Of a stretch of 64,000 nucleotides of DNA, positions 34,968-44,368 are shown piece after piece (the stretch's first letter is position 1; each line of letters begins with the position of its first letter). The DNA is taken from positions 1 to 64,000 of the forward strand of contig CAJXKJ010000011.1 of assembly GCA_913055605.1 (NCBI GenBank), read 5' to 3'. The notes beneath the pieces were generated by a model, which was not told the origin of the DNA, did not search any database, and saw nothing but the letters and a program-made list of their open reading frames with translations. The DNA is from an uncultured Euryhalocaulis sp. (GTDB lineage: Bacteria; Pseudomonadota; Alphaproteobacteria; Caulobacterales; Maricaulaceae). The position numbers and the translations under genes are program-made.

Positions 34968-36776
34968 ATGGTAACGACGACTTCCGACAAGCCGGCGGAC
35001 ATTGCGCCGACCCCAACGGCAGGCGGCGCCAGACGCGTGGGCGGTTTTACCACGCTGGTGAGCGCGCTGGAGTTTGCGGCCGAAGGGCCGACCGGGTTCA
35101 ATTTCCACGATGCGCGGGGCCGCCTGGAGCGGGCCGCGACGTATTCGGACATCGCCGCCGCGGCGGTGGCGCGCGGCCGGAAACTGGCCGGGCTGGGGCT
35201 GGAGCGGAATGCGCGAATCGGCCTGCTGGCCGAGGCCAATTTCGATTTCGTCACGCTGTTTTTCGGCTGCCATTACGCCGGGCTGCTGCCCGTGCCGCTG
35301 CCGAGCGCGATTCGCCTTGGCGGCGAGAGCGCCTGGGAACAGCAGCTGGCGCGCCTGCTGGCCGGCTGCGGCGCCTCGGCCGCGTTCTCCTCGGCCGCCA
35401 ATTTCAGCGTCATCGAACAGGCGGCAAAGGCTGCGAACGTGCGCTTCGCCGGGACGCCGGAATGGCTGGACGGGCAGGGCGCCGAGGGCGCGCTGAACCC
35501 GCTGACCGAGACCGATTACGGCTATCTGCAGTTCTCCTCCGGCTCCACGCGCACGCCGATGGGCGTGGCGGCGACGCAGCTGGCGCTGGGCGCCAATTGC
35601 ACGGGGCTGGCGCGCGACGGCGCCGGGGCGCGCGAGGGCGACCGGGTGGTCTCCTGGCTGCCGCTGTATCACGACATGGGCCTGGTCGGCTGTCTGCTGT
35701 CGCCGATGGCGGCGCAGCTTTCCGTCGACTTCCTGTCGCCCGATTCCTTCGCCCGCCGGCCGCTGCTGTGGCTGGAGCTGATCAGCCGCAATCGCGGCAC
35801 GATCGCGACCAGCCCGACCTTTGGCTATGCGCTGTGCACCCGCCGGGCCGAGCGGCAGGGCGAGACGAATTTCGACCTGTCGTCCTGGCGCGTCGCGGGC
35901 CTGGGCGGAGAAATGATCCGCGAGGACGTTCTGGAGGCCTTTGCCGAGCGATTCGCGCGCGACGGTTTCGACGCGCACGCGTTCGGGCCGTCCTACGGCC
36001 TGGCCGAAGCGTCGCTGACCGTCAGCTTCACGCCGCCGGGCAGCGGTTTCCGCGTCGATCCGGTGGACCTCGACATTCTGGAGTCCGAGCGCGTGGCGCG
36101 GACGCCGAAGATCAACGGCCATCCGGTGCGCCAGCGCAATTTCGTGCGCTGCGGCCGGCCGATCCCGGGCCATGAGGTCGAGATCCGCGGCGACGACGGC
36201 GCCGTTCTGGGCGACCGCGCCGTGGGCCAGGTCTGGGTGCACGGCCCGTCGATCATGACGGAGTATTTCAACCAGCCCGAAGCGACCGCCCGGGTGCTGA
36301 GCGGCCGCTGGCTGAACACCGGCGACCTTGGCTACATGGTCGAGGGCGAGCTGGTCATCACCGGGCGCAGCAAGGACCTGATCCTGGTCAATGGCCGGAA
36401 TATCTGGCCGGAAGACATCGAATGGGCGGTGGAGCAGATGGCCGAGGTGCGCAACCGCGCCACGGCGGCCTTCTCCATCGCGCTGGAAGACGGCCTGGAG
36501 GCGCCGATCATCCTGGTCGAATCGGGCCTGAGCGATCCCGCCGAGCGCGAGGCGCGCGCGCGCGCCGTGCACGCGGCGATCCAGGAGCGTCTCGGCGTGG
36601 ATTGCGGGGTGGTCCTGGTGCCGCCGCGCAGCCTTCCCTACACGTCGTCCGGCAAGCTGAGCCGGTCCAAGGCCAAGGATTTCTATCTGTCGGGCAAATT
36701 CTCGTCCGACGTGCGCGAGGCCGCGGCGGCCGGGGTCGTTGCGCAATCGGCCGCCTCTGTCGGGCTCGCAGCCTAG
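34968..36776 (+). CDS. Fatty acyl-AMP ligase / acyl-ACP synthetase of the sphingolipid cluster
   Basis: A 602-residue ANL-superfamily adenylating enzyme. The phosphate-binding loop is QFSSGSTRTPMGV, followed by LPLYHDMGLVG and FGPSYGLAEAS, and the hinge region reads NTGDLGYMVEGELVITGRSKDL. LPLYHDMGL resembles fatty acyl-AMP ligases, which load acyl chains onto carrier proteins rather than CoA. It probably activates the acyl chain for the adjacent ACP used by serine palmitoyltransferase or ceramide synthase. Start taken at ATG 34968; a frame from 34890 is possible but has no ribosome site. Confidence 0.85.
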   Translation: MVTTTSDKPADIAPTPTAGGARRVGGFTTLVSALEFAAEGPTGFNFHDARGRLERAATYSDIAAAAVARGRKLAGLGLERNARIGLLAEANFDFVTLFFGCHYAGLLPVPLPSAIRLGGESAWEQQLARLLAGCGASAAFSSAANFSVIEQAAKAANVRFAGTPEWLDGQGAEGALNPLTETDYGYLQFSSGSTRTPMGVAATQLALGANCTGLARDGAGAREGDRVVSWLPLYHDMGLVGCLLSPMAAQLSVDFLSPDSFARRPLLWLELISRNRGTIATSPTFGYALCTRRAERQGETNFDLSSWRVAGLGGEMIREDVLEAFAERFARDGFDAHAFGPSYGLAEASLTVSFTPPGSGFRVDPVDLDILESERVARTPKINGHPVRQRNFVRCGRPIPGHEVEIRGDDGAVLGDRAVGQVWVHGPSIMTEYFNQPEATARVLSGRWLNTGDLGYMVEGELVITGRSKDLILVNGRNIWPEDIEWAVEQMAEVRNRATAAFSIALEDGLEAPIILVESGLSDPAEREARARAVHAAIQERLGVDCGVVLVPPRSLPYTSSGKLSRSKAKDFYLSGKFSSDVREAAAAGVVAQSAASVGLAA

Positions 36777-36779
36777 ATC

Positions 36780-43064: not shown

Positions 43065-43192
43065 CAGCCTGTCTCCCTGTGTCGCGCCCGCGGGCGTTTC
43101 CCCCACCCTCGAAGGCGGCCTTTTAGTCGAAACGTCAAGCCACGTCACTGAAAACCAAGGGCGGTTGCTGTCGGAAAGCGTCCAGCGTGTCC

Positions 43193-44368
43193 TTAGGGTT
43201 CCATCCAGGAGCGGATCGTCCCGGCCCCCTCGGCCTGCACGATCCGCACCAATTGCACGGCGAACGCGAATCCGGTCCACACCGCCACGCCCGCAATCGC
43301 AAGATAGGGTGATTTTGCAAGTGCGAACAATGTCAGAATGACCAGATTCGTATTGCGGCCCGCGGCGATCAGCCGGAACCAGGAATCGAAGGCCCGCCAC
43401 GCATACAGGCCCAGATTGTGTCGGCGGTAGAACCACAACTCCTGAAGCTTGCACCCGAAATAGAGCCCGACGGACATCACGGCGATCCAGACCCAGGGGC
43501 CCGCCATCTGCCCCGTCGCGGCGAGCCCGGCCAGCCAGGCGGCGTACCAGATCGGCGGGGCCAGAATGTCCGTCCCCCGGTCCAGCGCGTCGCCGAGCGG
43601 ACTGGTGGCCACGGTGACGCGGGCGAGCTTGCCGTCCGCCGCGTCGGCCAGGGACGCGGCCCAGGCCACGACCAGACCGGCGGCGAACCCGCCGTTCAGG
43701 AACAGCAGCGCGGCCAGCAGCGACAGCAGCAGCACGCCAGCGGTCACCGCCATTGCGGGCACGCCCGCGCGCTGGGCCGTGCGGGCCAGATGGAAGGCGG
43801 GGTAGAGCCAGAGATATTTGGCGACGATGTCGGTCACGCCGAGATTGGCGGCGTTGTAGAGCGACCATTCCGCCCGGGGCGTGTTCTCCGCATCGACCAG
43901 ACGCGCGATCGGGCGGCCCGGACGGCGGCGCAGCGATTCGTCGAAGGCGCGGTCCAGATCGGTCGGGCGCAGGACGGGCAGAGGCAGGGATTGTTCGTCG
44001 CCGATCCAGCGTCCGCCCCGCAGGAAGGCTTCCAGCTCCGCCGCGCGGCCGGGCGGGGCGGCGGCGGCCACGGCGGCCGCGCCGTCCTCGTCCAGCACCA
44101 CGACCGACTCCAGCCGCAGCATCGCGGCGAACATGCGGGCGCCGATCACCGCGTCGCAGCGGACCAGCAGCACGGCCTCGTCGTCCTGCGCCTCGTCGAC
44201 GATGGTCGCGCCCAGCTGCCGGGCCATGCGGCGCAGGCGCTCCCCGCCCGACAGGCCCCAGACGGGGTTCTCTTCGGTTCCGACAAGGCGGATTCGCGGC
44301 GCTGCGCTCGCGGCGCCGGACGGTTGGACAAGTTCTGTGCTGTGGGTCAAAACGCGCAGCCTACGCAA
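43193..44368 (-). CDS. CDP-alcohol phosphatidyltransferase with degenerate nucleotidyltransferase-like N-terminus
   Basis: A 391-residue two-part protein. The C-terminal membrane domain (about 175-391, five or six helices) has a perfect CDP-alcohol phosphotransferase motif at D242-D267 (DAADGKLAR ... GDALDRGTD). The N-terminal 165 residues include WGLSGGERLRRMARQLG and LLVRCDAVIGARMFAAML, which recall sugar-phosphate nucleotidyltransferases but lack the Gly-rich GxGxR loop. It probably transfers a CDP-activated polar headgroup. The start is a TTG at 44368 in the longest frame, so the true start is uncertain. It heads the minus-strand half of the cluster. Confidence 0.78.
   Translation of the reverse strand: MRRLRVLTHSTELVQPSGAASAAPRIRLVGTEENPVWGLSGGERLRRMARQLGATIVDEAQDDEAVLLVRCDAVIGARMFAAMLRLESVVVLDEDGAAAVAAAAPPGRAAELEAFLRGGRWIGDEQSLPLPVLRPTDLDRAFDESLRRRPGRPIARLVDAENTPRAEWSLYNAANLGVTDIVAKYLWLYPAFHLARTAQRAGVPAMAVTAGVLLLSLLAALLFLNGGFAAGLVVAWAASLADAADGKLARVTVATSPLGDALDRGTDILAPPIWYAAWLAGLAATGQMAGPWVWIAVMSVGLYFGCKLQELWFYRRHNLGLYAWRAFDSWFRLIAAGRNTNLVILTLFALAKSPYLAIAGVAVWTGFAFAVQLVRIVQAEGAGTIRSWMEP

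Follow-up and report, generated by a model that had tools for sequence, protein, structure and literature searches.

The window, that is, the whole 64-kb stretch of DNA analysed here, carries nine intact open reading frames arranged in two convergent arms, 34968-39206 on the plus strand and 39229-44368 on the minus strand, whose stop codons lie about 20 bases apart. The sequence-only reading of this DNA had described nine genes in two converging operons between 34968 and 44368, and all of these frames are intact at or near those positions. The end which it placed at 44368 does not stand, because the same system continues on the plus strand (44404-47729) with a CC_1158-type phosphoesterase and an LptF2/LptG2 pair. 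Pfam and NCBIfam searches agree with the gene families proposed for eight of the nine genes; the nucleotidyltransferase-like gene is without any model match.

Caulobacter genomes of the same order were located by exact match to a published cpgD primer (PMC12275187). One of them, L037, serves as the orthology reference, and percent identities are those of the window genes to L037. Some NA1000 primers have no match in L037, so it represents a near species or strain and not NA1000 itself. Alignment with the Caulobacter ceramide and Cpg proteins reveals an orthologue in the L037 cluster for every one of the nine genes except the hydroxylase, which identifies the headgroup genes as the Caulobacter CPG/CPG2 genes. 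The same set of genes, in related orders, is present in Caulobacter and in many other genomes of the order, and the locus is therefore more than a chance assembly.

Genes of the ceramide backbone

The plus arm starts with aasR (34968..36776), a fatty acyl-AMP ligase (acyl-ACP synthetase for AcpR) and orthologue of CC_1165, which scores 732 bits against the PRK09192 FAAL subfamily (cut-off 600) and is 46% identical to the Caulobacter sp. cluster gene. The divergently oriented gene that immediately precedes aasR (34162-34743, minus strand) codes for a DUF2147 protein which probably has a signal peptide. The next genes of the arm are cerR (36780..37718; PF01370), an NAD-dependent epimerase-type 3-ketosphinganine/ceramide reductase orthologous to CC_1164 (40% identity to CerR), acpR (37738..38001, corrected coordinates; PF00550), a dedicated ACP orthologous to CC_1163 (44% over 59 aa), and spt (37998..39206), a serine palmitoyltransferase orthologous to CC_1162 (54%). 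The GNAT-like bacterial ceramide synthase gene cerS (41162..42298), orthologue of CC_1154, is located in the minus arm; it is 44% identical over 370 aa and matches PF00583 weakly. The complete ceramide pathway proposed earlier is thus borne out, since aasR, cerR, acpR, spt and cerS each have a family model, a Caulobacter sp. orthologue or both.

A KBL- or AONS-like activity of Spt had been named beforehand as a result that would speak against sphingolipid synthesis. Spt shares the fold-type I PLP superfamily with KBL and AONS, and the BioF and Kbl models match it over a long stretch. However, Spt passes the SPT equivalog model of NCBIfam (NF047599, 606 bits, cut-off 500) while BioF (325 bits against 426) and Kbl (314 against 460) remain below their own cut-offs, and its partners AasR, CerR, AcpR, CerS and CerK are all present. 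A KBL- or AONS-like Spt, in a locus which makes no sphingolipids, is therefore highly improbable.

A hydroxylase of the FA2H/Scs7 type

The minus-strand gene at 42315..43019 (corrected; 234 aa) encodes an FA2H/Scs7-like membrane hydroxylase (PF04116, 3e-20), which we propose to be a (dihydro)ceramide N-acyl hydroxylase. The gene is absent from the Caulobacter (L037) cluster. When a profile of 23 homologues is searched against the PDB, yeast SCS7 is its sole hit (E 6.8e-14); the aligned stretch retains the histidine boxes, and ten histidines of metal type are conserved. The AlphaFold model of the hydroxylase is of low confidence (pLDDT 58); the top four Foldseek matches are still all Scs7. Yeast Scs7/FA2H hydroxylates fatty acids and ceramides at position 2. 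In contrast to it, the protein in the window is bacterial and of 234 aa, with no cytochrome b5 domain seen, and its function here is predicted from sequence.

Our survey of 299 genomes of the order, the counts and p-values of which ignore relatedness, reveals the hydroxylase in 35 genomes and SPT in 95, and 34 of the 35 also have SPT (Fisher p 3e-18, relatedness ignored). In 28 genomes, the hydroxylase shares a contig with spt at a distance of no more than about 7 kb. Several families of the order have it as a neighbour of spt or cerS, and it stands immediately before cerS in a number of genomes as well as in L012 and L013, two Sphingomonadales-like contigs. Hydroxylase and CpgA are found together in 7 genomes, and their separate distributions indicate that the hydroxylase follows the ceramide and not the headgroup. 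PF04116 is a broad family, and the only NCBIfam model to match the hydroxylase, that of the ornithine lipid hydroxylase OlsE, does so with a score far under its cut-off; a substrate other than ceramide (ornithine lipid, carotenoid or sterol) and a chance position in the cluster could be imagined. However, the co-occurrence with SPT, the placement beside spt or cerS across families and in the two Sphingomonadales-like contigs, and the agreement of profile and fold on Scs7 make this unlikely. As a ceramide hydroxylase, the enzyme would probably act on the N-acyl chain, with C-2 as the probable position.

Hydroxylation itself is known in Caulobacter, where the amide-linked acyl chain is hydroxylated by the DesA-type enzyme CC_0202 (PMC11324152); the difference here is the enzyme family. 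We picked CC_0202 from two Caulobacter PF00487 genes by its distance from the cluster and its co-occurrence with SPT, not by locus tag; CC_0202-like DesA genes are present in 29 genomes, 28 of them with SPT. Among the SPT-bearing genomes, hydroxylase and DesA overlap in 4 whereas about 10 would be expected by chance (p 0.005, again ignoring relatedness). Searches of the draft assembly to which the window belongs returned no orthologue of either PF00487 gene, so no CC_0202-like DesA was found there. This distribution suggests that the N-acyl chain of ceramide tends to be hydroxylated by either an FA2H-type or a DesA-type enzyme, one standing in for the other. Since functional FA2H-like enzymes tied to 2-hydroxylation have been reported in myxobacteria (PMC10002949), the kind of enzyme is not new; in the literature searched we found no report of an FA2H-type hydroxylase in this pathway. 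If true, the pattern would mean that Alphaproteobacteria have a second way of making hydroxylated ceramides. In Caulobacter, the hydroxyl group of the ceramide is reportedly important for how polymyxin acts (PMC11324152).

Headgroup and predicted export genes

In Caulobacter, the headgroup genes act after ceramide, as judged by genetics (PMC11324152). The ceramide kinase gene of the window, cpgB/cerK (40116..41072, minus strand; PF00781, DAGK_cat), is an orthologue of CC_1160, whose product is the CpgB ceramide kinase of Caulobacter (PMC10331486). Identity to the Caulobacter sp. CerK is low (27%), but the GGDGT and DGE motifs are invariant and the gene adjoins cpgC as in Caulobacter sp.

The last gene of the nine is cpgA (43193..44368, minus strand; PF01066), a CDP-alcohol phosphotransferase orthologous to CC_1159 and 35% identical to Caulobacter sp. 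CpgA over its full length. The DxxDGxxAR...GxxxDxxxD motif is intact at D242-D267. This motif is common to all five aligned CpgA sequences, the N-terminal half of which is also partly conserved, and PDB relatives of CpgA include the inositol-phosphate cytidylyltransferase/phosphotransferase fusion 4mnd. In the survey, CpgA co-occurs with SPT in 46 of 46 cases, and Caulobacter genetics places it at the step from CPG to CPG2 (PMC11324152, PMC12275187). The suggestion that the CDP-alcohol transferase may yield a headgroup not yet described is unsupported and was set aside, because the gene is a CpgA orthologue along its whole length. In a genome of the same genus (G001), a desaturase-like gene is located just upstream of cpgA (G001:C16:42483-43100, L077); its 70% orthologue in the genome of the window (G000:C35:19816-20400, L083) lies far from the cluster.

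Beyond cpgA, the metallophosphoesterase gene (44404..45336, plus strand; PF00149) is 45% identical to its Caulobacter sp. orthologue of CC_1158, which helps CPG2 formation. Several genomes of the order carry a phosphoesterase of this type (L037 5639-6508, L120 12156-13019 and L125 5069-5932), among them G022 and G287, for which no CpgA match was obtained. A 2024 paper describes it as absent in Hyphomonas neptunium and Sphingomonas wittichii.

The nucleotidyltransferase-like gene of the sequence-only reading keeps that general character and can now be named more precisely as cpgC (39229..40119, minus strand), an orthologue of CC_1161 with 40% identity. It starts with TTG at 40119, overlapping the stop codon of the kinase gene, and sits between spt and cerK as in Caulobacter sp. 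No Pfam or NCBIfam model matches CpgC, no Tam41-type Pfam match is found in any of 12 family members, and a sequence search against the PDB returned nothing, Tam41 included. The family has invariant YGS, D64, K106, W129-x-R131-F132 and E190-x-R192, as would be expected if these proteins were active nucleotidyltransferases. A Tam41-type nucleotidyltransferase fold is predicted for CpgC: its AlphaFold model, which is of low confidence (pLDDT 63, pTM 0.62), has Tam41 as its best Foldseek match (E 3e-5, prob 1.00). Superposed over about 210 residues, Tam41 structures give Z scores of 14.2 and 13.7, and the family that ranks next reaches 8.8. Tam41 is a mitochondrial CDP-diacylglycerol synthase. 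The model shares the nucleotidyltransferase and helical domains of Tam41/TAMM41 (6ig4, 6ig2, 7ecd), whereas sequence identity is only about 11-15% and the substrate of CpgC would be ceramide-1-phosphate instead of phosphatidic acid. Fold and gene order together suggest that CpgC is a CTP:ceramide-1-phosphate cytidylyltransferase with CDP-ceramide as product. A CDP-DAG-synthase-like domain in CC_1161 had been noted in a 2024 paper, which suggested NDP activation of ceramide-1-phosphate; the mechanism from ceramide-1-phosphate to ceramide phosphoglycerate was still called unidentified in 2025-26 (PMC12275187, PMC13228409), and we found no mention of CDP-ceramide in the literature searched. We regard as possible, with somewhat less than even odds, the combined proposal that a Tam41-like CpgC makes CDP-ceramide, through which bacteria would assemble phosphosphingolipid headgroups in a way parallel to the CDP-diacylglycerol route, and that DesA- and FA2H-type hydroxylases, two families unrelated to each other, are interchangeable across the order.

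CpgD, the phosphoglycerate cytidylyltransferase which makes CDP-glycerate, is required for CPG2 in Caulobacter (PMC12275187), and sequence searches found no orthologue of it in the draft assembly of the window's genome (98 contigs). Two candidates (C3:121835 and C47:16855) were rejected, since they score as sugar-1-phosphate/MurU-type enzymes and are without the CpgD-type stretch found in G001, G128 and Caulobacter. In the same-genus genome G001, CpgD is present at 45% beside cpgA. Among 17 genomes searched, CpgA without CpgD is a combination seen in the window's genome alone: a strong match to CpgD was obtained in each of the six further CpgA-bearing genomes and in none of the ten without CpgA. 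An orthologue of CC_1153, a CofC-like nucleotidyltransferase (34%), is located at G000:C15:7-816, 7 bases from the contig end, and so an assembly gap over cpgD is possible. Such a gap is the simplest explanation for the missing gene, which may otherwise have been lost. In the latter case, CpgA would use CDP-ceramide from CpgC or another CDP-alcohol, and the end product would be a ceramide phospholipid other than CPG2. The breadth of the CpgA family, which includes CDP-DAG-type and CDP-choline-type enzymes, and the failure to find CpgD in the draft when G001 has it speak for this alternative; however, the contig-edge position of the CC_1153 orthologue and the strict pairing of CpgA with CpgD in the other genomes render it rather doubtful. 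As no CpgD was found in the draft assembly, the sequence does not settle which headgroup is made.

Two further plus-strand genes belong to the system, lptF2 (45379..46674), an orthologue of CC_1156, and lptG2 (46671..47729), an orthologue of CC_1155, both PF03739 members and pathway-specific. The former is 43% identical (253 bits) to Caulobacter sp. LptF2 as compared with 30% (155 bits) to the LptF at C2 of the same genome, and the latter 36% (179 bits) to Caulobacter sp. LptG2 as compared with 24% (69 bits) to the copy at C2. The pair probably exports the sphingolipid to the outer membrane. LptC2 (CC_1168), the flippase (CC_1166) and CC_1167 have no counterpart within the 64-kb window. A third LptF/LptG-type set, apparently split across contig ends, is present elsewhere in the genome (G000:C75:8-1659 and G000:C39:29337-29855).

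Proposed route and relation to the Caulobacter pathway

The identity and orthology of the genes, their synteny, their co-occurrence and the intactness of their motifs are established here, and on these grounds we consider the locus, with a probability of about 0.8, to be a Caulobacter-type cluster for making and exporting CPG/CPG2 phosphosphingolipids to which a hydroxylase of the FA2H/Scs7 type has been added. It shares aasR, cerR, acpR, spt, cpgC, cerK/cpgB, cpgA, CC_1158, lptF2, lptG2 and cerS as orthologues with the C. crescentus cluster CC_1168-CC_1152 (PMC11324152), and in both cpgC and cerK are adjacent and convergent with spt. It differs from C. crescentus in the hydroxylase beside cerS, in the CC_1153 orthologue being on another contig, in the lack of any cpgD or CC_0202-like DesA found in the draft assembly, and in the absence of CC_1166-1168 from the window. 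The pathway is thus a known one and the locus a variant of it, in which the substituted hydroxylase is what differs.

Caulobacter genetics or biochemistry has established what SPT, CerS and CerR do, as well as the kinase role of CpgB, the steps at which CpgA and CpgC act (from mutants) and the activity of CpgD (PMC11324152, PMC12275187, PMC10331486); what the enzymes of the present organism do, on which substrates and with which lipid products, is inferred. AasR would load AcpR with a fatty acid, and Spt would condense the acyl-AcpR with serine. CerS would then N-acylate the base, CerR would reduce the keto group, and the hydroxylase would add its hydroxyl to the N-acyl chain. CpgC would activate the ceramide-1-phosphate with CTP, probably to CDP-ceramide, and attachment of glycerate would give CPG. 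CpgA, aided by the CC_1158-type phosphoesterase, would transfer a second phosphoglycerate from a CDP-activated donor, and LptF2/LptG2 would carry the product to the outer membrane. The hydroxylated, anionic ceramide lipid predicted earlier is accordingly still judged probable, the genes of the CPG/CPG2 set and the Scs7-like hydroxylase being present.

With anionic sphingolipids, Caulobacter survives without lipopolysaccharide and becomes polymyxin-sensitive. The Tam41-like fold predicted for CpgC would reduce the CPG-forming step to one enzyme assay, and this direct test for CpgC is the most useful outcome of the analysis. At the far end of the window, an open reading frame running to its edge (63351-63998, minus strand) carries the metallopeptidase-type motif FAHECGHLIMH and resembles ImmA/IrrE peptidases.
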